NCBI GenBank assembly: GCA_015067005.1
Contig: SVNH01000005.1
Location: 1 to 64,000, forward strand
From: Ruminococcus flavefaciens
GTDB taxonomy: Bacteria; Bacillota; Clostridia; Oscillospirales; Ruminococcaceae
Direction of reading: 5' to 3'
DNA: 64,000 nucleotides
The notes below the pieces were generated by a model, which saw nothing but the letters and a program-made list of their open reading frames with translations, was not told the origin of the DNA and did no database searches. Shown in pieces: positions 6,559 through 40,947 of this stretch. Each line of letters begins with the position of its first letter. Within the stretch, counting starts at the first letter, position 1. A program made the translations under genes and the position numbers.

Positions 6559-6651
6559 CTATCTGCGGCTCAGTTTCTTCAAGAGCCACGGTGTAAACAA
6601 TGATTCAACGAATTTACCCAACGGAAGTATGTTGTACTGCGGGATGTACAT
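6559..6651 (-). CDS. Possible 30-residue peptide
   Basis: Short frame starting MYIPQYNILPLGKFVESL and ending in KKLSRR, preceded by a plausible ribosome site (AAAGGTGGTGA, about 5 nt from ATG). It has a hydrophobic middle and a basic tail. It lies in a 500-base gap between real genes, just after two minus-strand terminators. I recognise no family; it could be the remnant end of a larger gene. Confidence 0.3.
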   Translation of the reverse strand: MYIPQYNILPLGKFVESLFTPWLLKKLSRR

Positions 6652-6688
6652 TTTTTCACCACCTTTCACGCGCTAACGCGCAAATTTA

Positions 6689-6717
6689 ATAAAAAAGCGC
6701 ACGATAATCACGCGCGC
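6689..6717 (-). terminator. Second terminator after the immunity-like gene
   Basis: On the minus strand GCGCGCG...CGTGCGC forms a hairpin followed by TTTTTT. It acts in tandem with the hairpin at 6732-6754. Confidence 0.6.
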
Positions 6718-6731
6718 ATTTGGGTATAAGA

Positions 6732-24400: not shown

Positions 24401-27400
24401 TGTTTCAAAAAGGCACCAGCGGAACGCTGCTGAATTTCGTTGAAAAATCAGACCTTACCGAGAATGACTTCGTTGTTTACTCTGCTACAAAAGTCGGAGT
24501 TTCTGATAAGGAGACTGTCACTGTTACAGATGAAAAAACAGGTGAAACGACAGAGAAAGAGGAGTACGTTGTCCGGAACGATTCACAGATAATCGTCTAT
24601 ACTCGTGCATGGAACGAAAACGAGAAAAAATATGAGTTCTACGCGATAGACCACCTCGGCAGACTGCTCCCTTGTTACGAGAGCGGCGACAGTATTATGT
24701 GGATAGGTAACCAGATCAACTCTCTCCTGTGGGATTTTACCGAGTATCATAATGCAGACGGCACGCTCAACGGTTACTATGAGCTTTATAACCCTTATTC
24801 GCGAAAGTATTTAGCACCTCTTACTAACAACAGGATAACCTCGAATGGTACGGTCGGTATCAATCTCAGAGGTCGGCGAAATGATGAGTATTACACAAGG
24901 ATCGTCGCATGGGACGAGGGCGATTACGCTTACTATGCGTTAGATGCAGATGTTGACCTTGGAAGGCTCATATCCTGCAAGGAGACCAGTCTTGAGCAGA
25001 ATGATGAGAGTACAGACTTCTACTTTGCAATAATGGAGCCGCTGAAGCCGGATGATATCAGCAATGATTCTCTTACGCCTGTTGAAACGATAGACAATAC
25101 CCAGTACGGTATCACTATGAGTGCTATCAACTTTGAAAACAAAATAAATGAAAACGATCATACTACCAAACAAGATATTTATCTCGGAGATAATACAGTC
25201 TGGGGAGATCATAAATACAAACCAAAACAGAACATTTTATCAACGGATCTGAAAACTAACGGCTACCCGACAGCAACAAACGGCGGACACTCTTTATCAG
25301 AACTGTTTGAAGGCGCAAGAAATGTTAATCATCTCTTTATAAAGAGTACATATGAGGCATCAGGCTATTTTGAATTTGACAGCTGTCAGAACTATGCAAC
25401 ATTGCTTGATCCCGCGACTAACAGCGTTACAGATAACTTTACAGTTTATAAAGAGCTTGGAACAATGAACGGTTCCGCAAAGCCGACATTGCGGCATGGT
25501 CAGTTCATGCCGTATAATACGATAAAAGCCGGAGGTTTTATAGAAAATTTAAATGATGCTAAAAACCCATATAATCTATATGACGCATTAGGCAACGAAT
25601 TAAAAGAAGATGATCCGAGAAAAAACGAAAAACTCTATTATGTAAAAGATCCTGATTATTATCATGGAATGGAGCTTTCAGCTGGATTTGTCCAGACACC
25701 GAACGGGCATGATGCTTGGGGACATGATATTATCTTCGAGTTTACCGGAGATGATGATTTCTGGCTCTATGTTGACGGTGAGCTTGTTATTGACCTCGGC
25801 GGAATACATAGTGCTCTTGAAGGAAAGGTTAATTTTGCTACCGGTGAAGTAAAGGTCAATTCCGGCACTGGAGATAACGTTGTCAAAACGACTTCTTTAT
25901 ATGAATTGTTCAGGGAAAACTATATAGGGCGCAAGCATACCGAAGCACAGGCATTAGCATATATGCAATCACAACAAAATGACACCACTTTGACATTGGA
26001 AACAATACAAGAAAATGAAGATTTGTATGCTGTATATAATGCTTATTTGTCTGCAAATAACACAGAAGCAGAAGCAACTTCTTATCTGAACGACATTTTT
26101 GAACCCAAAACAATTGGCGACGAAACCCACTATGTTTTTAAAGACTACACATCTCACACCATGCGTATCTTCTATATGGAGCGTGGTGCAGGTGCATCTA
26201 ATCTGCATATGCGCTTTAATCTCAGCTACGTTACCCCTGGCAGCGTCCTGATGAGCAAGGAGGTCGGTGGTGTAGATGATCTGGACTACAGTCTGATGAA
26301 ATACCCATATCAGATCTATTATCAGGAGGTCGAGGACGGACCTTTTGAAAGACTGAGACCAAATACCGAAAATTTCGGCGTTTACTACCTTAACCCAAAG
26401 AGAAATGCCACTTACTACGCACAGTACAAGTCTCTCTCAAACAATCAGGTATATCAAGATGTCTATTTCCTCACTCCAGGAAAGGACGTTTCGATAAGCT
26501 TCCCGGCAAATACGATAAAATACTACATCGTTGAATGCGGTCTGAACGGTGAGGTATACGATGCCGTTCAATGCAACGGCGGTGATTCAACCGTTGAAAC
26601 TAATAATGGCGGAAAGGATTTTACGATCGTAGCTGCAAACGTAAAAGAAAGACCGAATGTTCAGCTGGTGAATAAGGTCGATCCGGATTCAGTCAAAACG
26701 CTTACGCTCCGAAAGAAGCTTGTCGGACAGAATGGTGCTGAAATAAATGATGACAATACAACCTTCAGTTTCCGTCTCTATCTTGAAAAGACCGTTACAG
26801 AGGAACAAGAGGGTGTACCAACAGAGAATAAGGAGCTGGAGCTTGCCTATCTCCGAAAATATTACGTCGTGTCTCCTGACGGAAAGTTCTGCATATGGGA
26901 TTCGGAACAGGGGAAATTTGTTGCATCATCTGTTGACTATAATGTCGATCTTGAGGATAAGACGCCATATACCTTTGAGACATCGCCAAACGGTCAGATA
27001 TCCAAAATACCGGTAGGCTATGAGGTCAAAGTTCCTGGGCTTCTGAACGGCATGAAATTCAAAGTCGAGGAACGTGAAAGCGATAACCCGATAGGATATG
27101 ACGTTTACAGTCTGGAGGGCTATACCTGCTTGAAGGAAGGCGAGATTGATTCCTACTTTGTTGAAAGCGGCGAAAGTATTAATACCGGTACTGTCAGAAA
27201 AGGTGCATCGCCGTCAATGCTTATCACAAATAAGCGCGGTTACGGTATCGAGGTCAAGAAGGTCTGGAGCGATGCGGATTATACCGTTTCTCATGAGCCG
27301 GTCTATATAGCAGTCTATGTTGATGGTGTGCTGAAAGAAGGCACTGTCAGAGAGCTCAACAATAATATACTTTCACAGCGTTATTTCTTCGACGATGATG

Positions 27401-30043: not shown

Positions 30044-30230
30044 ATGGCTAAAAATCGAAGAATACCGTTCGGCTATCAGATGAAAAACGGCGAAATAGTA
30101 ACCGAGCCGAAAGAAATGTACGCCGTATCAAAGATATTTGCTGATTACCTAAAAGGCAAAAGCCTGCTTGAAATATCCAGATCTATTCAGGAGGAAAAGA
30201 TCCCATATCATCCAGGCGAGGATCTCAGCT
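30044..30230 (+). pseudogene. Fragment of a serine site-specific recombinase
   Basis: Reads AKNRRIPFGYQMKNGEIVTE and ends at YHPGEDLSWN, the recombinase-domain segment common in large serine recombinases of Firmicutes. The catalytic serine domain before it and the rest after it are missing. It breaks at about 30230, exactly where the tyrosine recombinase fragment begins on the other strand. Confidence 0.7.
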
Positions 30231-31102
30231 GGAACAGCTTCTGTTAAAGGTAGTTCCAAAGGCTTTCCGGTCTTTTTCTGCACTATTCTTATTTTTTTAT
30301 TAATCCAGTCAACACATTTGAATTCAAGCCCAAATACATCACTAATACGAAGACCAAACGTTGTAACAAGCATAAGAACGGCATAGTCTCTTTTCCCAAT
30401 TGGATTATTTCTATCAACAGTCTTCAAAATCTTTTCAACCTCATCAGGCTCAAGAACTGTTGGAAGTCTGTATTTAGGAATATTACGTACTTTAATGATG
30501 CTTCCTGAAAAATCTTCACTATGGTATCCGTTTGCAACAGCATATTTGAATAACTTACGAAGAATGTTTATCGTTGCAGATACAGTACCATTAGAAAATC
30601 CAGTTAAGGATTTTACATAGTTATTGATATGCTCAAGTTCAACCTGATTAAACTCATCTAATCCTGACTCCAGCAAAAAGTGTTCTAATCTAAACAAACG
30701 ACTTTTCCAGGTTTTTATTGAACCCTCAGCTACATTATCAGCTTTTAGATATTCAAGGAATCCAGTGAACAGATTATTGTATTTTTCGGAAAACTGTTTT
30801 ATGTGATTTCTTGAACATCCATATACAACGCCATAAGTTTGAAAATCATCAATGAGCATAATTGCTCTGTTGACATTATGCGATGTATCGGCATCTCCGA
30901 GCTGCATACCATATTTGCTCCACACATAGAATCTGCCAGCTTCAAGAGTAAACTTACCACCATAATTCTCGTTGCAAAACGCGATTAAGCCCCTCCATAC
31001 AGCATCGTACCTTTCGATAGTTGCCTGCTTATATCCCAAGGAAATCATTTGGGATTTTAAGCTTTCAATTATCTGCGAAATACTTTTACTATTAGTTGCC
31101 AT
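30230..31102 (-). pseudogene. Tyrosine recombinase/integrase truncated before its active site
   Basis: About 290 residues of real homology. An N-terminal SAM-like core-binding domain (residues about 1-205) is followed by the start of the catalytic domain with the first Arg (GLRISDVFGLEF) and the beta-hairpin lysine region (IRIVQKKTGKPLELPL). The His-x-x-Arg, His and nucleophile Tyr are absent because the gene is cut near 30230 and the frame runs into unrelated sequence. Ribosome site GGAGG and a plausible promoter remain. A catalytically dead remnant of a mobile element. Confidence 0.85.
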
Positions 31103-31149
31103 TTACATAACCTCCAATATATTTGTAACAGGTTTGCCTGTCCATTTAT

Positions 31150-31178
31150 ATTGTAGAGAATTATGTTAAGCTTTACAA
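31150..31178 (-). promoter_or_regulatory. Promoter of the truncated integrase
   Basis: On the minus strand TTGTAA, 17 bp, TACAAT, about 48 nt before the start codon at 31102. A short ACAGG-CAAA-CCTGT inverted repeat lies between them. Confidence 0.5.
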
Positions 31179-31245
31179 GTGATATTTCCTGATTTTATGG
31201 AGGTGAATTGACATGATTTAACATTATTATTTTTTTGCATAAAGC

Positions 31246-31986
31246 GCGGATTTCGGCGTCGCCCAAGCCAGAAAAAGAGTGTTCATTATCGGATTTCTTA
31301 GAACCGAGTGCGCCGGAAGAATACTGTCTTTCACAGACGCAAATCCAAAAACTCTTATCCAGCGCATACCAGGAAAAGAAGGATGCCGCGTCTACTCCCC
31401 TGAAGGGCTGAGCATAACACTTACCGGAACAGCCGGAGGCTTTGGCGGTAAGTCGGGACTGTATGAGATACTCGGCCTCCCAATAAAATCACTTACAAAA
31501 ACGGGATATCAAATAGCTGTCCCCGGTGACAGTATCGACCTTGCATATGCTGATATGAACAGCCGCAGAGGACGTGTCGGACATGACATAGCCCATACGG
31601 TAACGCCATCGGCAACACAGGGATTCTATTCAGTGAAATGTATAGATATGAATCCAGATCCTGCTATAACAGACCTTGCAAGGTGTATAACAGCAAGGCA
31701 GGATAACGGTATCGGACATCATAAAGGCGAAAAATCCGCTGCTCTATTTATGGATAAGCCAATACCAGTGCTTACTCATGCCAAAGAGAAGATTCGACAG
31801 CAAGGGCGAAGATTCAAGGATACTGACGAGCCGATGTTTACAATAACCGTTACTGATAGGAACGGCGTTATGTACAACGGACTGATACGAAAGCTTATGC
31901 CACTTGAGTGCTGGCGATTGCAGGGATTTACCGACGAGCAGTTTTACAAAGTCAAAGCGACAGGAATGTCAAACGCACAGCTATAC
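31246..31986 (+). pseudogene. C-terminal part of a DNA cytosine-5 methyltransferase
   Basis: Begins at ADFGVAQARKRVFIIGF, the QxRxR motif VIII, and runs through a target-recognition region to LECWRLQGFTDEQFYKV (motif IX) and ends at SNAQLYR, just before motif X would be completed. Motifs I-VI, including the PCQ catalytic cysteine, are absent. The 3' end is fused to a recombinase fragment. It is a both-sided deletion remnant. Confidence 0.85.
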
Positions 31987-32813
31987 CGTTGACTGTATAA
32001 CCCATAGATCTGTCAAGAATAACGGCGAGCGTGCAAAGTACCTCGTAACTGACGCACACGATGCGATAATTGATAGAGATACTTATAACCTTGTGCAGCA
32101 AGAACTTGCACGGAGAGCATCTATGCGGAAAAAGCGAGAAAACTATATCACAGCAAGGCAGATATTCTGGGAAATACGCTCTGACAGATATAATGGTATG
32201 CGGTGAATGCGGTTCAGCATATAGGAGACAGGTATGGAATATACACGGTAGGAAATGTCCGGTATGGCGGTGCGTAAGTAGATTTGATAATGGTACTCGC
32301 TACTGTAAACACTCTCCCTCACTCCATGAAGATAAGTTGCATAAATCGATACTGTCTGCCATTAATGAATATTATGGTTGTGGCGATAACATAAAGGAAC
32401 TGCTGAAAGGCAATATTGAGCAAGCTATCGCAGGAGTGAGCATCAAGGAAACAAAGGAAATTCAGAAAAGGCTTCGTGAGATAGATGATGCCCGAAATGA
32501 TTATATAACCCTAATAGCGTCTGGTACTATGGACGAAGAAGCTATGGATGAACAGTTCCAAATGCTGTATGCCGAAGAACAGGAACTCAACTCCAGATTG
32601 AAAGCTCTGGAAGAAAACAATAATATTGACAATAATAAAAGGTCTCAGATAAGTAAGGCTTTCCAAGAAATAGACAACAGCTCCTGTGAACTGACGGAGT
32701 ACAACGATATGCTCGTAAGAAAACTGATAGAATGTGTTAGAGTTGTCTGCAAGACTGAGATACAGATCATATTCAAGGGTGGGAAAGAAACTACAGTTAC
32801 TGTAGAAAAATGA
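31987..32813 (+). pseudogene. C-terminal part of a large serine recombinase with a frameshift
   Basis: Homology runs from YTVDCITHRSVKNNGERAKY through DAHDAIIDRDTYNLVQQELA to RRASMRKK. It then changes frame at an A-run near 32126-32130 and continues as SEKTISQQGRYSGKYALTD, a zinc ribbon (CGECGSAYRRQ...CVSRFDNGTRYC) and a coiled coil to the stop at 32813. The catalytic N-terminal domain is absent. One extra or two missing A explains the frame change. It belongs to the TnpX-like recombinases of conjugative transposons. Confidence 0.85.
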
Positions 32814-32861: not shown

Positions 32862-34331
32862 TTATGCCGCTGTAATAGCCGAATATCTTTCAGAAGAAAG
32901 AATTCTGTCCATTACAGACTCGGGAGAGCAATCACCGCCCATGACCATATCAAATACGGCGGGGGAGTACCCAGATACCAGAGCTGCTCCTGTTTCCGAA
33001 CGGTTTACGGGTACAGCATCGCAGCGTGCGTTAACGTTCCAGAACACGATATCAGGCAGTTTGTAGCCGTTCTGAGCATAGAGCTTTCTCATCTCGCGGA
33101 ACATGGGCTCATCGTTGCCGCCGACTATACAGTAGTCAAACTGCATATCGGATATGATATAGAGCTTGGAGGGCATATCGCTCTCGGGGACGCGGTTCTT
33201 CACAGCTGTACGGAGTATCAGCGTGAACACAGCCTCCAGGTTCGTATTCGCGACCTCGTTGAAGGTGCGGCAGTAGTTCACCCTCTCAACGATATTGATG
33301 CCCTTTATTTCTACAAGACGAGGAGTTTCGGAGAATGTGATGAAGTGATTTGCGAATGTGCCCGTGTTGTGCTCTGCGAAGTATATGCCCAGTGACAGAG
33401 CTGCATCTATGGGACGTATGCCTCCGCATTCACAGGTCATGGAGCCTGAACCGTCGATTACAGCAAGGGCGTTTTCACGCTTTGACGCTGTCAGGGCGGG
33501 CAGGGACTTCCATGCTGCGTCGAGTGACATTTTTTCTGCGGCAGAGACATCTCCCATAGCCGCACGGACGATGTCATAGGGGAACAGTCTGTCAGCGTTG
33601 AGCTTTGCCTCGCCACTGTGTACCTTGTTCAGGTAATCGGAGTAGCGTTCACCGTCGTTGCGTATGAACGCGCCTCTGTACTTGAACATAGCGCACGAGG
33701 GCAGAGCTTCGTATCTGAACGTGTAGTCACGCTCGCGGAGACGGTTCTCCAGTATGTCGGTGTAGCGGCGGAGCGCGGACAGAGTCTTTCTGTATGTACG
33801 CTCGGTCATACCGAGGGAAGCAGCAAGGTGTCTGCCTATATTGCGTGTCTCCTTAGAGGAAGCATTCACGGAGGGCATCCACTTTGCAAGCAGAGAAGCG
33901 GGTTTCTTTGCGTTCATAGCAGCGATGTCCTTGTCGAGCTGAGCCTTTATGACTTCGACTGCGGCATTCTCCAAGGGAGTATCGAGCAGAACGCACAGGT
34001 CGTCGAATCTGCCATACTCTGCGAACAGGGAGATATTCTTCTTTACTGCATCGGGCGCTGTTCTGACGAGCGCAGATATAGCTATACGAAAGAAACGTCT
34101 CTCGCCGAGACCGCCTCTTGCATCGCGGGCAAAGAAGACTATCTTCATAGTCTTGTCAGGATCCTCAGCGTAAGCGCGTATTACAACATCAGCTATCTCT
34201 GCCGCGGTTGAATTTCTCATGGCGCCTGCCTTGAAGAACATATCAAGGCAGAAGGACTCGGATGAACGGTAAGCAGTACCGCCGTTCTCGGTGTATGTCA
34301 TATTGGATTCGTTCTTTAAGTAGTTAAGCAT
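32862..34331 (-). CDS. DUF2828/TROVE-like protein with vWA domain (Ro60-like)
   Basis: A 489-residue protein. The N-terminal two-thirds is helical and HEAT-like (AMRNSTAAEIADVVIRAYAE, ARDARGGLGERRFFRIAISA, LFAEYGRFDDLCVLL), as in DUF2828 and the TROVE ring of Ro60. A von Willebrand A domain follows from about residue 285, with an intact MIDAS motif DGSGSM and later Thr/Asp positions (TNLEAVF, ISDMQFD). Ro-family proteins bind small Y RNAs and the 3' ends of misfolded RNA. Here the gene lies directly after seven structured RNA elements and rtcB on the same strand, which strongly supports an RNA quality-control role. AAAGGAGC lies 6 nt before ATG. The exact relation to classical Ro60 needs a profile comparison. 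Confidence 0.8.
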   Translation of the reverse strand: MLNYLKNESNMTYTENGGTAYRSSESFCLDMFFKAGAMRNSTAAEIADVVIRAYAEDPDKTMKIVFFARDARGGLGERRFFRIAISALVRTAPDAVKKNISLFAEYGRFDDLCVLLDTPLENAAVEVIKAQLDKDIAAMNAKKPASLLAKWMPSVNASSKETRNIGRHLAASLGMTERTYRKTLSALRRYTDILENRLRERDYTFRYEALPSCAMFKYRGAFIRNDGERYSDYLNKVHSGEAKLNADRLFPYDIVRAAMGDVSAAEKMSLDAAWKSLPALTASKRENALAVIDGSGSMTCECGGIRPIDAALSLGIYFAEHNTGTFANHFITFSETPRLVEIKGINIVERVNYCRTFNEVANTNLEAVFTLILRTAVKNRVPESDMPSKLYIISDMQFDYCIVGGNDEPMFREMRKLYAQNGYKLPDIVFWNVNARCDAVPVNRSETGAALVSGYSPAVFDMVMGGDCSPESVMDRILSSERYSAITAA

Positions 34332-34346: not shown

Positions 34347-34425
34347 AAGTCAGGCTTTTCCATGCGTTGCCACAGGGCAGGATTCGGACCTGCATAAAAC
34401 CGATTCTTCATGCTGTTGCTGACTT
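34347..34425 (-). ncRNA. Structured RNA element 7 (Y-RNA/tRNA-like)
   Basis: 79 nt. Closing stem AAGTCAG/CTGACTT (7 bp), 2-nt spacer CA, box ACAGCA. Inside is a T-arm-like hairpin, GCAGG-TCCGAAT-CCTGC, with a 7-nt loop close to the tRNA T-loop consensus. It ends 15 nt before the start codon of the Ro-like gene, so it may also shape translation of that gene. Confidence 0.6.
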
Positions 34426-34428
34426 AGC

Positions 34429-34503
34429 TCGGCTCATTATTATGCAGTGCTTTGACCCGTAGGAAAGCTCCCTGCGTCCCTGAATTAATGCTGTCAGAGC
34501 CGA
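34429..34503 (-). ncRNA. Structured RNA element 6 (Y-RNA/tRNA-like)
   Basis: 75 nt. Closing stem TCGGCTC/GAGCCGA (7 bp), spacer TG, box ACAGCA. Same length as element 5, and the first 30 nt after the stem align closely with it (ACAGCATTAATTCAGGGACG against ACAGCATCTATTATGGGGAC). Confidence 0.65.
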
Positions 34504-34523
34504 ATTGTAAACTTATGTTATTC

Positions 34524-34598
34524 TCGACTCATCTTTCACCCAGCCCTTTTCATCGCTGATGGTACGTGGGTCCCCATAATAGATGCTGTGAGAGTCGA
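34524..34598 (-). ncRNA. Structured RNA element 5 (Y-RNA/tRNA-like)
   Basis: 75 nt. Closing stem TCGACTC/GAGTCGA (7 bp), spacer TC, box ACAGCA. It differs from element 6 in the stem by a compensatory A-T to G-C change. An internal ACCCA/TGGGT pairing is possible. Confidence 0.65.
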
Positions 34599-34614
34599 AA
34601 TTACTGCTGTTTTC

Positions 34615-34687
34615 AAGACGCCTGCTTTGTGTTTTCACATCCTTTTATAGCATTTCATAAATCCTGTATGATTGCTGATAGCGTCTT
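34615..34687 (-). ncRNA. Structured RNA element 4 (Y-RNA/tRNA-like)
   Basis: 73 nt, tRNA length. Closing stem AAGACGC/GCGTCTT (7 bp), spacer TA, box TCAGCA. A TGTG-AAAA-CACA hairpin lies in the 3' half. Confidence 0.6.
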
Positions 34688-34696
34688 ATTTGTGGC

Positions 34697-34722
34697 CGCA
34701 GCTGCCGTGTATTGCAGCTGCG
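34697..34722 (-). other. Strong GC hairpin between RNA elements 3 and 4
   Basis: Perfect 9-bp stem CGCAGCTGC/GCAGCTGCG with an 8-nt loop. No T run follows on either strand, so it is not a standard terminator. It may be a processing signal or protect the ends of neighbouring RNAs. Confidence 0.55.
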
Positions 34723-34732
34723 AAAAGTTTGC

Positions 34733-34791
34733 AAGGCGCTGTTATGATCCTATGTTAACAGTATAGTCATTGTGTTTGCTGTGAACGCCTT
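34733..34791 (-). ncRNA. Structured RNA element 3 (Y-RNA/tRNA-like)
   Basis: 59 nt. Closing stem AAGGCGT/GCGCCTT (7 bp with one G-U), spacer TC, box ACAGCA. Internal hairpin CTAT-N9-ATAG extended by ATGA/TCAT across a 2-nt bulge. Confidence 0.6.
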
Positions 34792-34808
34792 ATTACTTTT
34801 GGATATGC

Positions 34809-34862
34809 AAGGCACAATATTCAGTTTTCTGTTGAATGAAACCCTTTTGCTGTATGTGCCTT
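34809..34862 (-). ncRNA. Structured RNA element 2 (Y-RNA/tRNA-like)
   Basis: 54 nt. Closing stem AAGGCAC/GTGCCTT (7 bp, extendable to 8), spacer AT, box ACAGCA. Internal hairpin ATTCA-N9-TGAAT. Confidence 0.6.
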
Positions 34863-34867
34863 AAAAA

Positions 34868-34927
34868 TCGTCGCTTTGGGAGTTGAACCCATTCTTTTGA
34901 ACTGCCTGATCTTGCTGTATGCGACGA
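34868..34927 (-). ncRNA. Structured RNA element 1 (Y-RNA/tRNA-like)
   Basis: 60 nt, beginning 4 nt after the rtcB stop codon. Closing stem TCGTCGC/GCGACGA (7 bp), spacer AT, box ACAGCA. Near the 3' end a T-arm-like hairpin TGGG-TTCAACT-CCCA carries a loop matching the tRNA T-loop consensus TTCRANY. A TTTTT run follows the closing stem. Confidence 0.65.
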
Positions 34928-34931
34928 AAGA

Positions 34932-36176
34932 TCAACCTTTGATAACTCCAACGGTAAACAGCCGCTTAACGGGCTCCGTCAGGTCTATCTGATTAGCCAT
35001 GACATCGTTGATGTCCTTGTATGCGAAACGTGCCTCTTCAGCAACGTCTCCTTTCTTATTCTTAGCAAGAACTACGTTCTGCTCCTTCAGATCCACCATT
35101 ACCGATTCTACAGAAAACGTCTCCTTTGCAGCTGTACGCGAGTAAGCTCTGCCTGCACCGTGAGATGAGGACATAAAGCTGTCAGGGTTGCCCTTTCCAC
35201 GTACTATATAGCTGTAAGAGCCCATAGCTCCTGGAATTATTCCCATTTCACCCTCGCCGGCGCGTATAGCGCCCTTTCTGTGCACCCATACGTCCTTGGC
35301 GAAGTGATTCTCAAGAGCAGCATAGTTGTGATGACAGTTTATCTCATCAGAGAATGTCGGCACTATTCCTGTGTGCTTCTCTATATGCTTTGTGAATATC
35401 TCTTTGACATTCTGCATCATAAGAGCACGATTCTCGAAGGCGTAATCCATGCAGAGCTTCATCCATGTAAGGTATCTCTGTCCTTCATCTGTGTCAACAG
35501 GCAGGAAGGGGAGATTCCACTCGCTTGGCACCTGAGAGAACCACTTGTCATTGAGCTCGTGAGCTATATGATTGAAATACTGTCCTACGATATTTCCAAA
35601 ATGGCGGCTTCCTGAGTGGAGCATTATGCCGCACATTCCATTATCGTCCTGCTGTATTTCGATGAAGTGGTTGCCGCCACCGAGAGTACCAGCCTGATAG
35701 TAGCCAGCCTGTATATTAGGAATAAGCTCGGGGTCAGCCTCATACAGGTCAAGCTCAGCATTTGCCCTGTCAAGGACTTCAGAAGGCTGCGGCTTTGAAT
35801 GACCTTTTGTTCCTGTAGGAACATTGCGGAGGATGTCACCGCATATGGTCTGTACGAGATTTCCGCTGCCTGTTATTGTGCCGCGGAGTAGCTCGACAGG
35901 GATATCGATCTGAACGTAAGCCATTCCGCAGCCGATATCAACACCTACTGCATTTGGGATGACCGCGTCCTCACAGGCTATAACTCCGCCAATGGGCATT
36001 CCCTTTCCTGCGTGAGTATCGGGCATCAGAGCTATCCATTTGTGAGCGAACGGGAGCTTAGCGAGGTGCTCCGCCTGTTCGATACATTTTTCGCCGACAG
36101 CTTCCATATCTGTCTGCCATATCTTTATGGGGAGCATATTCTCGTTTTCTTTGTAATGTACGAACATTTCATTCAC
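34932..36176 (-). CDS. rtcB: RNA ligase RtcB
   Basis: A 414-residue RtcB, full length. It has the metal-binding motifs DTHAGKGMPIGGV, GVDIGCGMAYVQ (Cys), GGGNHFIEIQ and LHSGSRHFG, and the guanylation histidine in SSHGAGRAYSR. RtcB joins 2',3'-cyclic or 3'-phosphate ends to 5'-OH ends with GTP and Mn; in bacteria it repairs RNAs cut by nucleases or toxins. Both genomic sides support that: Ro-like gene and RNA elements downstream, nucleotidyltransferases divergently upstream. No archease gene is present here. Transcribed from a 138-bp divergent region with a palindrome at 36211. Confidence 0.95.
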   Translation of the reverse strand: MNEMFVHYKENENMLPIKIWQTDMEAVGEKCIEQAEHLAKLPFAHKWIALMPDTHAGKGMPIGGVIACEDAVIPNAVGVDIGCGMAYVQIDIPVELLRGTITGSGNLVQTICGDILRNVPTGTKGHSKPQPSEVLDRANAELDLYEADPELIPNIQAGYYQAGTLGGGNHFIEIQQDDNGMCGIMLHSGSRHFGNIVGQYFNHIAHELNDKWFSQVPSEWNLPFLPVDTDEGQRYLTWMKLCMDYAFENRALMMQNVKEIFTKHIEKHTGIVPTFSDEINCHHNYAALENHFAKDVWVHRKGAIRAGEGEMGIIPGAMGSYSYIVRGKGNPDSFMSSSHGAGRAYSRTAAKETFSVESVMVDLKEQNVVLAKNKKGDVAEEARFAYKDINDVMANQIDLTEPVKRLFTVGVIKG

Positions 36177-36229: not shown

Positions 36230-36314
36230 ATAAATTTTTCTGCACACACTCGGAATCGTATTGCAAAAGCAGAGAATATCTGTTAATATATAAATGTAGG
36301 AAGGAGTGACAATT

Positions 36315-37589
36315 ATGGCTGGATTCTCTGAGCTTATCAAGAATTTCGACAAAACACGAGACTATGTGCGTGATTTTTTCATATATGGCTGCAAGGTCAG
36401 AAGCGATTTTGACCGCAAGAGCATCCGCACCTACGGTGATGAAAAGCGCCGTGTTGAGAGCTGGATGGGTGACTATATGCGCTATGATGATTCGGTACAT
36501 GGCAGGAGCGTCTCGATTTCGGTAGATAGTGGTCATATTCCAGAGAACCCACTGTATAACGCCTATTATTCAAAGAGCTTCACTGATAATGATATACGTC
36601 TGCACTTCCTTCTGACCGATATTATACAGGACGGGCAAAGCAGAACGCTCAAGGAACTGGTGGATAGTCTGAATACGGAATATGAACAGCTGTTTGATGA
36701 GCAGACCGTCCGAAATAAGCTGAAAGAGTACGTGGACGAGGGTATAATAATCGCAGAAAAGCATGGAAAGACGTTGTATTATTCTCTTTCCCGCGACAAG
36801 GCCGATGACTTTGTCCGCGAGTACACAGGGCTTGATGATGCCTTGAAGTTCTTCTCAGAAACTCAGCATTTCGGCATTATCGGAAACAGTATCCTCAAAA
36901 TGCTCGGGCTTCAGAACGACATCTTTTTTATAAAGCACAACTATATCATACATACGCTTGAAGATATCCTTATCCCTGAGATACTGACAGCAATTAACGA
37001 AAAACGCTGCGCTTCATTTATGGCATTATCTGATAAAAGGAAAAAAGAGGGCGATGACCTTGGTACAGAGAATAAGGTGATTCCTATGAAGATACTTGTA
37101 TCCGTGCAGACAGGCCGCCGCTATCTCGCGGCGTATATACCAAGCTATAAGCGATTTTCCGCATTTCGCCTCGATAATATGAAAACGGTAAAAATTGGCG
37201 AATGCTATGAAAACTATGACGCTCTTAAGGCTAAATTTGAACGTAATATGTGTCATTGTTTCGGAGTATCCTTCGGTATGAGGAGGGAAACGGGTACTGT
37301 AACTCCTATGAAGATAACGTTTTACGTTGATGAGGAGAAAGAACCATTTATTATCGACCGTCTCGAATGTGAGAAGCGCTGCTGTATTATCGAGCATACG
37401 GGAGAGCACCTTTATACCCTGACAGCAGATGTGTTTGACCCGAACGAGATAATGCACTGGGCTAAGACTTTTATTGGCAGGATAGTACGGATCGAAGGTG
37501 GTGCTGATACGGTCAGGATACGGTTTTACGAGGATATGAGGCGAATGAACAGGATGTACGGTGGTGATGAAGATGAATCTGTTCAGTGA
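36315..37589 (+). CDS. WYL-domain transcriptional regulator 1
   Basis: A 424-residue protein. It has an N-terminal winged-helix region (LVDSLNTEYEQLFDEQTVRN...YVDEGIIIAEKHGKTLYYSL at about 110-160), then a WYL domain (about 245-330; GRRYLAAYIPSYKRFSAFRL) and a C-terminal extension (AKTFIGRIVRIEGG). WYL domains sense nucleic-acid ligands and often regulate defence and DNA/RNA damage responses. The pairing with RNA repair genes suggests sensing of damaged RNA. Start is ATG 36315 with AAGGAG at 36301-36306; the earlier GTG lies inside that site. Confidence 0.85.
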   Translation: MAGFSELIKNFDKTRDYVRDFFIYGCKVRSDFDRKSIRTYGDEKRRVESWMGDYMRYDDSVHGRSVSISVDSGHIPENPLYNAYYSKSFTDNDIRLHFLLTDIIQDGQSRTLKELVDSLNTEYEQLFDEQTVRNKLKEYVDEGIIIAEKHGKTLYYSLSRDKADDFVREYTGLDDALKFFSETQHFGIIGNSILKMLGLQNDIFFIKHNYIIHTLEDILIPEILTAINEKRCASFMALSDKRKKEGDDLGTENKVIPMKILVSVQTGRRYLAAYIPSYKRFSAFRLDNMKTVKIGECYENYDALKAKFERNMCHCFGVSFGMRRETGTVTPMKITFYVDEEKEPFIIDRLECEKRCCIIEHTGEHLYTLTADVFDPNEIMHWAKTFIGRIVRIEGGADTVRIRFYEDMRRMNRMYGGDEDESVQ

Positions 37590-38571
37590 GATATATGGAG
37601 CATATTTCCGCGTAGCGGCTAAGTTGCTTGAAAATGAGGTCACAGATGAAAAAACAGTACGTGAGACTGTAATTCATGACGGATTTCGTGATTCCGTGCT
37701 TTTTCTTCCACAGAAGCTTATCCCGAGTGGAGAGGACTGGGGACTATTTAGGCGTAATGCTGACGGAAATCTCAGACGGATAACGAAGAATACTCCTGTT
37801 AAGGTGTTGACGCGGCTGCAAAAGATGTGGCTGAAGGCAAAGCTCAGCGACCCGAGGATAAAGTTGTTCATGGACAGTGAGGCACTCGCTTCTATGGAGC
37901 AGAGGCTTGCAGATGTGCCTCCGCTTTACAGCAGAGAGCAGTTTGGCTTCACTGACAGATTCCTCGACAGCGATGATTACAATGACGAAAAATACATACA
38001 GAACTTCCGAATTGCACTTGATGCGGTAAAACGTAGAAGAATAGTGTATATTGAGTTCGTTTCAGGTCACGGTAAGCGTATGAACGGTAGATTTGTGTTG
38101 CTAAAAATGGAGTATTCTCCTAAAAACGATAAATTCCGCGCATATTGCTATTTGCTGCGTAATGATAAAGTCAGGAGCAGCGGTATCATCAACATCGGAC
38201 GCATAACAAGGATAGAGGACACGGGAAGGGCATACAGAACTCCTGTTTCCATGGACGAATACTTCTCAAGCCGTAAATGCAGCACACCTGCGATAATTAG
38301 AGTCAGCACAGAGCGCAACGGCGTTGAACGTTTTATGCTTGAATTTGCTTCTTATGAGAAGCATACAGTGCGTAATCTTGAAACAGGACAGTATAACGTG
38401 GAATTGTGGTATGACCAGCAGGATGAAACTGAACTGCTTATCCGTCTTCTGAGTTTCGGACCTGTAATAGAGATACTTGGTCCCGAACACCTGAGGGAAC
38501 AGGCAAAACAACGTATAAAGCGGCAGATAGAACTGCTGGAAAAATACAGAAGGGAGGAGGAATATGAATGA
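37573..38571 (+). CDS. WYL-domain transcriptional regulator 2
   Basis: A 332-residue WYL protein overlapping the first by 17 bases. The WYL core is at about 150-230 (RRRIVYIEFVSGHGKRMNG, KNDKFRAYCYLLRNDKVRSS) with a C-terminal WCX-like part (FGPVIEILGPEHLREQAKQR). It is divergent from gene 1 and lacks an obvious winged helix, so the two may work as a heteromer with gene 1 binding DNA. ATG 37573 fits GGTGGT at 37560; GTG 37561 is the alternative. Confidence 0.8.
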   Translation: MNLFSEIYGAYFRVAAKLLENEVTDEKTVRETVIHDGFRDSVLFLPQKLIPSGEDWGLFRRNADGNLRRITKNTPVKVLTRLQKMWLKAKLSDPRIKLFMDSEALASMEQRLADVPPLYSREQFGFTDRFLDSDDYNDEKYIQNFRIALDAVKRRRIVYIEFVSGHGKRMNGRFVLLKMEYSPKNDKFRAYCYLLRNDKVRSSGIINIGRITRIEDTGRAYRTPVSMDEYFSSRKCSTPAIIRVSTERNGVERFMLEFASYEKHTVRNLETGQYNVELWYDQQDETELLIRLLSFGPVIEILGPEHLREQAKQRIKRQIELLEKYRREEEYE

Positions 38572-39916
38572 TATTGAGGCAGCAAGACTCATTGCCGAAA
38601 AGACAGAACAGCTTGGCGGCAGGGTATTCTTTGTAGGCGGATATGTACGTGATGAGATGCTTGGAATTGAAAACAAAGATATCGATATAGAAATACACGG
38701 ATTAACCAAACAGCAAGTAGAAGCCGTGCTTGATTCGGTCGGTGAAAGGCTCGAATACGGTAAGAGTTTTGGAATATATGGACTTAGCGGTCTTGATCTC
38801 GATATTGCTCTTCCGAGAACTGAACGCACAATCGGGAGCGGCCATAGAGATTTTGAGGTCAGCTCGAATCCATTTATGGGTACTCTTGAGGCTGCCCGTC
38901 GCAGAGACTTTACTGTAAATGCACTAATGAAAGATGTGCTTACAGGTGAAATAATTGATCATTTTGGCGGACTGAGCGATATCAAGTCGAAATTGATACG
39001 TCATATAGATGATAAAACATTTGTAGAAGATCCGCTAAGGGTGCTTCGCGCAGCTCAGTTTGCTGCAAGATTCGGCTTTGAGATTTCTGATGATACAATC
39101 GCTCTTTGCCGTAATATTGATATTTCTTCATTATCTGCAGAGCGAATAATGCTTGAAACTGAAAAAGCTCTGCTCAAAGCAGAGAATCCCTCAATGCTTT
39201 TTGAACAACTGCGCAGGATGGAGCAGCTTGATTATTGGTTCCCCGAACTGAATGCTCTGATAAATGTTCCGCAGAACAGGGAGTATCATCGCGAAGGAGA
39301 TGCATGGACGCATACGATGATGGTTCTTGATGAAGCAGCAAAACGAAGAAGTGATGTAAAATACCCGCTTGGCTTTATGATGTCAGCACTTTGCCATGAT
39401 TTTGGTAAGGCTATATGCACTACCGTTTCGGAAGACGGCACTGTTCATTCCTATGAGCATGAGAAAAATGGACTACCTATTGTACAGAAGTTTCTGGAAC
39501 GTATCACAACTGAGACAAAGCTGATAAAATACGTCCTGAATATGACGGAGCTTCATATGGAACCGAATATAATGGCTAATACCAGATCAAAGCTGAAAAA
39601 AACTAATAAACTGTTTGATTTATCAATAGAGCCTTATGATCTTATTCAGTTGGCTGTATGCGACGGACTTGGGAAGATACCGAAGAGCAGAGATTCTGAA
39701 GGATTCCTTTTGCAGAGATATGAAAAGTATCAAAGAATAATGGAACGTCCTTATTTAATGGGACGTGACCTCATTGAGGCGGGCTTGGAGCCATCTGAGC
39801 ATTTTACCGAGATACTTGGATATGCCCATAAATTGCGTCTCGCCGGCCTTGATAAAGATGATCAGCTTCGGCAGAGTCTTGCTTATGCAAGAACTGTATT
39901 GAAAACAGGGAGGTGA
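38564..39916 (+). CDS. HD-type CCA-adding / poly(A)-polymerase-family nucleotidyltransferase
   Basis: A 450-residue class II nucleotidyltransferase. It has catalytic GGYVRDEMLGIENKDIDIE (the two Asp of the DxD), RRRDFTVNALMKD, the RNA/base-recognition helix DPLRVLRAAQFAARFGF, and a C-terminal HD phosphohydrolase domain (HTMMVLDEA, CHDFGKAI). In known enzymes the HD part removes 2',3'-cyclic phosphates, and the head adds CCA to tRNA 3' ends. Next to rtcB and rlaP a dedicated end-repair role is likelier than housekeeping CCA addition. Strong GGAGGAGG ribosome site; overlaps the WYL gene by 8 bases. Confidence 0.9.
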   Translation: MNDIEAARLIAEKTEQLGGRVFFVGGYVRDEMLGIENKDIDIEIHGLTKQQVEAVLDSVGERLEYGKSFGIYGLSGLDLDIALPRTERTIGSGHRDFEVSSNPFMGTLEAARRRDFTVNALMKDVLTGEIIDHFGGLSDIKSKLIRHIDDKTFVEDPLRVLRAAQFAARFGFEISDDTIALCRNIDISSLSAERIMLETEKALLKAENPSMLFEQLRRMEQLDYWFPELNALINVPQNREYHREGDAWTHTMMVLDEAAKRRSDVKYPLGFMMSALCHDFGKAICTTVSEDGTVHSYEHEKNGLPIVQKFLERITTETKLIKYVLNMTELHMEPNIMANTRSKLKKTNKLFDLSIEPYDLIQLAVCDGLGKIPKSRDSEGFLLQRYEKYQRIMERPYLMGRDLIEAGLEPSEHFTEILGYAHKLRLAGLDKDDQLRQSLAYARTVLKTGR

Positions 39917-39921
39917 GCACA

Positions 39922-40947
39922 TTGAAGCTTGAAGATATAAAACAGAAAGTTGCCGGAAACGAATATGATTTTCTGCGTACCAATGAACATCTGGGAAAAA
40001 GCATTATTCTTCTCGGACTTGGAGGTTCTCACGCTTATGGGACAGAAACCGATACATCAGACCTTGATATACGCGGATGTGCCCTTAACAGCAAAAGTGA
40101 GATTCTCTGTGGAGAGGATTATGAACAGGTAACAGATATTCCTACAGACACGACCATATACTCTTTCAGGAAACTGATTTTGCTTTTGACTGATTGCAAT
40201 CCAAATACTATTGAGATACTTGGTCTGAAACCTGAGCATTACCTGTATCTTTCTGAGATAGGGCGAGAATTGCTTGGAAACCGAAAGATATTCCTGTCGA
40301 GGAAAGCTATAAAAACTTTCAGCGGATATGCAACTGCTCAGTTCCGAAGTCTCGACAATAAGACATCAAGACTTGCAGACCAGTCTATTAAGGAGAAACA
40401 TATACTAAATAGCATTAATCTGGCATCTGAGAGTTTCAATGAGATGTTTTTTCAGTATCCTGAGGAGGCAATCAAATTGTATATAGATACAGCTGTTTCT
40501 CCTGATATGGATTCAGAGATATTTATGGATATAACTCTTAGGCACTATCCGCTTCGTGATTACAAGGATATGTGGAATAGAATGTCCGATATTTTACGTG
40601 ATTACGAAAAGTTAGGCAAACGCAATCAAAATGCGATAAGCCACAATAAACTTGGAAAGCATATGATGCATCTTATCAGATTGTATATGATGTGTATCGA
40701 TATTCTTGAAAGAGAAGAGATCATTACTTTCAGAGAAAAAGAACATGATCTGCTTATGAGCATAAGAAATGGTGCTTATCTAGATGCAAACAAGCAGCCG
40801 ACAGATGATTTCTTTGAACTTGTTAACAAATACAAGAAACGGCTTGATTATGCAGCTGATAATTCATCGCTTCCTGATACTCCTGACTATAAGACAATTA
40901 GAGAGTTTACGATGTACGTTAATGAGAGAGTTGTGAAAGAGGAATAA
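39922..40947 (+). CDS. RlaP-like RNA-repair nucleotidyltransferase
   Basis: A 341-residue protein of the DNA-polymerase-beta fold. It has the signature LGGSHAYGTETDTSDLDIRG (Gly-Ser helix start and the metal-binding DxD), a long helical C-terminal part, and a later DIRLRHYPLRDY-like segment (ITLRHYPLRDY). This matches the family called RlaP (Nuc-transf_2), linked to RNA repair operons by comparative genomics; its reaction is not settled. The TTG at 39922, 8 nt after GGGAGG, is the likely start; the track-type GTG at 39913 falls inside the ribosome site. It is the last gene of the WYL-WYL-CCA-RlaP operon. Confidence 0.85.
   Translation: MKLEDIKQKVAGNEYDFLRTNEHLGKSIILLGLGGSHAYGTETDTSDLDIRGCALNSKSEILCGEDYEQVTDIPTDTTIYSFRKLILLLTDCNPNTIEILGLKPEHYLYLSEIGRELLGNRKIFLSRKAIKTFSGYATAQFRSLDNKTSRLADQSIKEKHILNSINLASESFNEMFFQYPEEAIKLYIDTAVSPDMDSEIFMDITLRHYPLRDYKDMWNRMSDILRDYEKLGKRNQNAISHNKLGKHMMHLIRLYMMCIDILEREEIITFREKEHDLLMSIRNGAYLDANKQPTDDFFELVNKYKKRLDYAADNSSLPDTPDYKTIREFTMYVNERVVKEE

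Follow-up and report, generated by a model that had tools for sequence, protein, structure and literature searches.

A tandem array of Y-RNA-like units beside a DUF2828 gene of Ruminococcus flavefaciens: candidate tRNA decoys in bacteria and phages

Among the closest described systems are combinations of Ro-like proteins, small Y RNAs, and RNA-repair enzymes. RtcB, a Ro-like protein, and Y-like RNAs are found together in the Salmonella rsr-yrlBA-rtcBA repair operon, which is regulated by damaged tRNA, and a Deinococcus Y RNA tethers Rsr to PNPase (both PMC7790460). Hughes et al. proposed that the tRNA-like portion of the bacterial Y RNA YrlA may act as a competitive inhibitor. A ROT/TROVE protein that occurs beside RtcB and RlaP in a small minority of jumbo phages has been described as an RNA-repair platform with a tRNA-like partner (PMC7824862), and DUF2828, arrays, and anticodon arms are not named in the available part of that account. 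The locus considered here lies in a 64,000-nucleotide window of Ruminococcus flavefaciens (contig SVNH01000005.1, positions 1 to 64,000), in which seven tandem units occupy positions 34347 to 34927 of the minus strand, between the RNA ligase gene rtcB (34932–36176) and a DUF2828/DUF7788 gene (32862–34331), both also on the minus strand. Compared with the Salmonella operon, the locus has WYL-type proteins nearby, seven RNAs, and no RtcR or RtcA match among the seven locus proteins to which the scan was confined. That the array and its neighbor constitute a ribonucleoprotein (RNP) system is well supported; the fuller reading, in which the units are Y-like RNAs bound by the DUF2828 protein and probably serve as tRNA decoys that may be directed at anticodon nucleases, is judged to have about an even chance of being correct.

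An earlier sequence-only reading of the window had proposed that small Y-RNA-like RNAs are encoded in tandem next to rtcB and a gene for a Ro-like protein, and its coordinates, unit lengths, and stems were reproduced by reading and folding the sequence. All seven units follow one rule, namely a 7-bp closing stem, 2 nt, and an NCAGCA box, and each stem pairs with its own 3′ partner at seven of seven positions, with one G-U pair in U3 and only Watson–Crick pairs in the other six. The rule was evaluated on DUF2828 relatives from 19 of 197 genomes of the same family (G054 and G107 being weak or partial) and from 48 public-genome loci; the 64 loci analyzed include that of the window, a few are present twice (as a sampled genome and as a public record), and later counts refer to unique units. 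Upstream regions were cut back to a close rtcB where one was found and otherwise to 1500 bases, and may include other genes. In these regions 315 non-overlapping units were called, 278 of them with seven of seven pairs, as compared to a mean of 6.25 (standard deviation 2.9) such units in dinucleotide shuffles of the same regions, which argues that the unit array is not a product of chance. When boxes were kept and partners were taken from other loci, a fully pairing partner was found for 47.75 of 422 boxes. At least two strict units are present at each of the 47 analyzed loci of L021 to L068, the 48th (L058) having been excluded as a match without a gene start.

The 257 unique units with a G at stem position 3 yield the consensus W-ANGRYNC-NN-ACAGCAR ... 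A-rich ... GNRYCNT-G. The G following the 3′ stem strand lay outside the selection and was found in 98% of these 257 where the flank sufficed, U1 of the window, with T at this position, being an exception. Six of the seven stem pairs change on both sides (covariation score 0.520 versus 0.188 in shuffles and at most 0.117 in slides), a count that is partly circular, as its 50 rows were picked for pairing. The family alignments show a closing stem that is nearly invariant, or fail to recover it where 3′ ends were misaligned.

Stem and box were also retained beyond these loci. Thirty-three regions of 6.7 to 15 kb, comprising 17 new loci (L112–L128) and 16 extended cuts around previously analyzed loci (L129–L144), were scanned on both strands, and all 104 strict units found lie at most 2.6 kb upstream of the DUF2828 gene and on its strand, with zero strict units in the remaining 368.8 kb. 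The new loci account for 52 of these units, and at least one strict unit is present at 32 of the 33 regions. At L116, which has no strict unit, two box-variant units were found by eye (6570–6730), with ACAGCC and CCAGCC replacing ACAGCA. The exact pattern was detected in six of the 197 family genomes, at seven places that are all DUF2828 loci, and the reversed pattern in none. A covariance model of the kind first suggested for this array, the stem-and-box model R1, drew on 50 units out of a diverse set of 76, including some from the very genomes searched, and 28 candidates were scored in each genome. At E ≤ 0.1, R1 matched 27 of 197 genomes, with DUF2828 present in 17 of the 27; at E ≤ 0.001, it matched 17 genomes, 16 with DUF2828 and one, G130, without. 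R1 also recovers one of the L116 units, and G111 and G190 each carry an additional R1 unit away from the DUF2828 locus. In the window's own genome, R1 recovered U2, U3, and U4, with the next match at E = 0.46 (150 of 1204 candidates scored); the model is insensitive, missing four of the seven window units at E ≤ 10, and more such units elsewhere in the genome are possible. DUF2828 itself was detected by profile search in seven of 398 sampled genomes of the phylum and 16 of 295 genomes of the order, including one weak match, G814, that was set aside.

The idea of RtcB as the constant partner of the array was not supported. No rtcB match was found in 14 of the 33 stretches (L113–L116, L122, L124, L126, L128, L130–L132, L134, L136, and L139), 13 of which have strict units, consistent with box and stem going with DUF2828 rather than with rtcB; in stretches of this length, a more distant rtcB is possible. 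A handle common to all Ro systems was likewise not seen: five regions around TROVE-type Ro loci of the phylum contained neither a strict unit nor, at E ≤ 1, anything matching R1, and two unit matches emerged only if the 3′ G rule was relaxed. (TROVE matched six of 299 genomes, the sixth, weak and with a stop, being dropped.) Separately, single units without a DUF2828 match in the surrounding 11 to 13 kb were observed at L287 (5236–5289), L288 (6439–6494), and L289 (6168–6226), with stems TCGGCAC or TCGGCAT; the L287 unit adjoins a gene that by eye resembles glutamate dehydrogenase.

These strand data bear on whether the repeats act as DNA rather than RNA, for example as recombination cassettes with terminal inverted repeats. 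Unit number and order differ among relatives, and apparent mobile-element remnants lie downstream, as such a role might predict; however, in both-strand scans the units are always on the DUF2828 strand (104 of 104 in bacteria and 137 of 137 in the viral stretches described below), their heads bear tRNA arms, and a few head pairs are kept through two-sided changes. A DNA role is accordingly rated very improbable.

The Y-RNA reading draws support from the DUF2828 protein, which is predicted to fold like Ro60. A structure predicted from 18 sequences (predicted local distance difference test, pLDDT, 84; predicted template modeling score, pTM, 0.73) could be aligned with Ro60 over 398 residues, so that a Ro60 fold is predicted over most of the protein's length, and the metal-site residues of the vWA domain are present (DxSGS motif in the window), as in Ro60/Rsr. 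In contrast to Ro60/Rsr (TROVE), all 27 of 27 aligned members are assigned by Pfam to DUF2828 plus DUF7788, none of the 27 matched the TROVE profile (PF05731) at E ≤ 0.001, and a search of PDB sequences with DUF2828 was not significant (TROVE, E = 0.51). Mycobacteriophage records already label DUF2828 genes as Ro-like RNA binding proteins. DUF2828 is not mentioned, among the matches listed, in literature retrieved for DUF2828 or RtcB; part of the present findings, in particular the occurrence of Y RNAs close to Ro proteins in phages, may already have been described in print.

Like YrlA (RF02553), the units adjoin a protein with a Ro60 fold (here predicted), their ends form a closing stem, and an inner module is tRNA-like. 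The window itself displays the predicted Ro60-fold neighbor, the end-to-end stem with a variable module, and a T-arm (in U7), the tRNA-like module being more pronounced in relatives than in U7. Sister loci L064 and L052 and the mycobacteriophage region L273 matched YrlA over all 114 positions (56.8, 50.3, and 39.8 bits), and all YrlA matches at sister loci fall under the cut-off of 69. Together with the predicted fold, these sub-cut-off matches sustain the proposal of a Y-RNA-like array. At the Rfam cut-off, nine loci gave 89 matches, all to tRNA and none to YrlA, and the window gave zero; a permissive search of the window returned tRNA-Sec alone (E = 2.7), with no YrlA match at E ≤ 10. The units differ from YrlA in carrying NNACAGCA after the closing stem, where YrlA has aAUGCuugg, in the anticodon arms that some of them bear and the YrlA consensus lacks, and in their arrangement, with up to nine strict units in tandem.

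These likenesses also fit a tethering role, in which the handle binds the Ro-like protein and the heads recruit tRNA-binding enzymes (exonuclease, modification, or repair), producing a multi-adaptor RNA quality-control machine. The Deinococcus Y RNA works in this manner on Rsr and PNPase (PMC7790460), and both the YrlA-like units and the predicted Ro60 fold are in keeping with it. Tethering alone, however, leaves unexplained the anticodon loops that switch tRNA kind on a fixed stem, described next, and is considered unlikely, albeit the strongest of the alternatives to decoys.

The heads of the units were compared with the tRNA set of the window genome (46 unique genes with 40 anticodon loops; Phe and Ile missing). 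Among 314 unique bacterial units, 33 form a hairpin (stem ≥4) with a 7-nt loop identical to an anticodon loop of that set, as compared to a mean of 0.8 in 20 shuffles and 2 in the reverse complement. Anticodon-like arms (stem ≥5, loop YTNNNRN) occur in 67 units versus 7.65 when shuffled, T-arms in 61 versus 1.55, and one or the other in 124. Some units are circularly permuted tRNAs, in the order T-arm, acceptor strand, short loop, acceptor strand, D-arm, among them the units that align with YrlA along its full length at the two bacterial loci and next to the Ro gene of a mycobacteriophage, and at L125 a nearly complete tRNA lies within one unit (46.6 bits; cut-off 29). A match to the Rfam RT-6 RNA above cut-off was also observed at L125 (1794–1866). 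Ordinary tRNA genes were sought and rejected, with ARAGORN finding none in the window and none in 257 linear units at default. When units were doubled to imitate circles, ARAGORN returned seven matches at default (a figure without shuffle control), 57 at an 80% threshold versus 12, 18, 7, 3, and 10 in five shuffles, and 130 at a 70% threshold versus 62 to 79; some matches in the doubled-unit runs were on the opposite strand.

On several stems, the loop changes from one tRNA identity to another. The stem TTATC/GATAA carries CTTTCAC (Glu) six times, CTGTCAA four times, CTGTCAC (Asp) three times, ATGAAAA twice, and CTTCCAA (Gly) and CTACCAA once each. CTATR/YRTAG carries CTGTTAA (Asn) five times, CTTTTAA (Lys) once, and three other loops once each, while TCATA/TATGA carries CTTTTAA three times, CTGCTAA (Ser), CTGTTAA, and, in the window, CAGGATT. 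For the stem WTAGA/TCTA, found in phage contigs, the counts are six for CTTTTAA, two for CTGTTAA, and one for TTGTTAA. The stems were searched as fixed patterns, and these counts thus describe loop variation on an unchanged stem, not relative rates.

Within the window, all units lie on the minus strand. U1 (34868–34927; 60 nt; stem TCGTCGC/GCGACGA; box ACAGCA) has a head consisting of a small hairpin and a T-arm-like hairpin whose 4-bp stem is capped by the loop TTCAACT (alignment A5, the window plus 14 of 15 family members). U7 (34347–34425; 79 nt; stem AAGTCAG/CTGACTT) bears a T-arm, GCAGG-TCCGAAT-CCTGC, followed by a short hairpin, and resembles the top half of a permuted tRNA (alignment A4, the window plus 21 of 32 family members). 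The T-loop-like loops previously noted in these two units were thus recovered by folding, the second on a 5-bp stem. U2 (34809–34862; 54 nt; stem AAGGCAC/GTGCCTT; R1 E = 1.1e-6) has no recognizable anticodon-like arm, although units with this stem carry one, with Asp or Glu loops, in many relatives. U3 (34733–34791; 59 nt; stem AAGGCGT/GCGCCTT; R1 E = 1.7e-4) contains the Asn GUU loop CTGTTAA on the scaffold CTATA..CATAG with one A-C mismatch at the loop, and its minimum-energy fold is without the anticodon arm. U4 (34615–34687; 73 nt; stem AAGACGC/GCGTCTT; box TCAGCA; R1 E = 4.1e-4) has the scaffold TCATA..TATGA, its loop CAGGATT not being an anticodon loop. U5 (34524–34598; 75 nt; stem TCGACTC/GAGTCGA) and U6 (34429–34503; 75 nt; stem TCGGCTC/GAGCCGA) share the family E head, in which some pairs covary (alignment A3, these two units plus 22 of 26 family members). 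A strong GCAGCTGC hairpin outside the unit rule lies between U3 and U4, at about 34690–34730.

The pairing of array and DUF2828 recurs in other genera and in phages. The exact DNA pattern was found in 75 IMG/VR contig stretches, not all independent, and the reversed pattern in none. A DUF2828 homologue is present in 42 of the 75, and all 137 of their units are on its strand, 111 of them within 1.5 kb. When viral contigs were searched with the window DUF2828 protein, no relative was found, and none of four pattern matches was confirmed. Anticodon-like arms are present in 44 of the 171 unique phage units (6.3 when shuffled) and T-arms in 21 (1.3 when shuffled), with Lys UUU as the commonest anticodon (11 hairpins). 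A DUF2828 homologue was detected in 674 of 50,697 phage records, and strict units in 11 of 17 phage-record regions, three of these being closely related Listeria phages. Downstream of its DUF2828 gene, Listeria phage A511 has genes annotated as tRNA splicing ligase and RNA ligase. In Listeria phage CKA15, three units, two of them strict, occupy 25290–25552, the gap upstream of CKA15_055, and published RNA-seq data for this phage show three regions of very high transcription, tentatively called Y RNAs, in the 2 kb preceding CKA15_055 (PMC12282133); transcription of the CKA15 units is therefore possible. The transcribed interval printed with coordinates (OR088597.1 26236–26727; L301 2737–3228, minus) resembles a separate, unexplained noncoding RNA.

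Real anticodons switching on a fixed stem, the nearby repair enzymes, and the leaning of phage units toward Lys UUU together suggest decoys for anticodon nucleases. This leaning recalls the PARIS nuclease, which cuts tRNA-Lys and which phage T5 tRNAs escape (PMC11455837), in that a phage-encoded answer to tRNA-Lys cleavage is implied in both. In contrast to those tRNAs, which are functional and resist cutting, the array units would mostly lack a free acceptor end and would not be chargeable.

Several observations weigh against the decoy reading and the Ro assignment beneath it. Foldseek TM-scores between DUF2828 and Ro60 are just 0.37 to 0.53. The only canonical anticodon loop in the window is that of U3, on its mismatched stem, and U2, U4, U5, and U6 are without a recognizable tRNA target, making this array a weak example as regards anticodon mimics of its own. 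Neither arm type is present in 190 of 314 bacterial or 116 of 171 phage units. Six of the 17 phage-record regions (L271, L275, L281, L282, L285, and L286) have no strict unit, though R1 later recovered two units at L282 and one weak unit at L281, and the CKA15 region transcribed at 26,236–26,727 contains no unit. Finally, an RtcB match is lacking in 74 of 75 viral as well as 14 of 33 bacterial stretches, and resealing therefore cannot be general.

Beyond rtcB, the locus continues on the plus strand with a divergent WYL-type protein, WYLa, kept at many array loci (36306–37589), a WYL/WCX-type protein, WYLb (37561–38571), a CCA-adding/poly(A) polymerase family protein (38564–39916), and the RNA-repair nucleotidyltransferase RlaP (39913–40947). 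A defense-library search gave matches limited to the two WYL proteins. Homologues of both occur at 23 of the 33 regions L112 to L144, and among the 68 loci L001 to L068, many of them cut short, WYLa was found at 45, WYLb at 39, the CCA-type polymerase at 12, and RlaP at three, most stretches stopping before the position of RlaP. This conservation, like the regulation of the Salmonella operon by damaged tRNA (PMC7790460), would suit damage sensors, in which cleavage of a unit would alter the RNP and the divergent WYL proteins would relay this signal to turn on repair genes. None of the four proteins has a homologue in the 75 viral stretches, however, and promoter-like sites in the window region number 4 versus a shuffle mean of 4.2; a sensor role is considered distinctly improbable. 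On the other side of the array, downstream of the DUF2828 gene, 30149–32813 contains an integrase gene and, by eye, DNA methyltransferase-like and recombinase-like pieces, and is likely a mobile-element junction.

For the decoy reading, the following mechanism is envisaged. Small RNAs built like bacterial Y RNAs would be expressed from the array, cut into units, and bound by the adjacent DUF2828 protein through a handle composed of the 7-bp stem from both ends, the NNACAGCA box, and the G after the stem. The heads vary among units, many of them mimicking parts of a tRNA (T-arms, tops of permuted tRNAs, and anticodon arms with real anticodons), and the set would most likely draw tRNA-cutting enzymes off real tRNA. 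A cut decoy would be held together by its closing stem, and RtcB, where present, could reseal it, a step that is a guess from gene order. A broader proposal, that bacteria and phages share an RNP system whose tandem array is a library of swappable anticodon baits on one handle, with anticodon replacement tracking tRNA-cutting weapons and RtcB able to regenerate cut baits in cellular versions, is advanced tentatively, at somewhat less than an even chance.

Relative to known Y RNAs, the new parts are a handle unlike the YrlA consensus and heads that are often tRNA pieces; relative to what had been read from the window, they are the anticodon arms in relatives, the link to DUF2828 rather than rtcB, the two WYL-type proteins, and the phages. 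If the decoy reading is true, a class of RNA partners and a probable function would be assigned to DUF2828, which is present in 674 of 50,697 phage records and seven of 398 phylum genomes, and the purpose of the tRNA-like part of bacterial Y RNAs would become testable, as heads with real anticodons predict which tRNA each RNA replaces. If the units are indeed decoys, phages and hosts alike would be using them in their conflict as a shield of RNA against anticodon nucleases.
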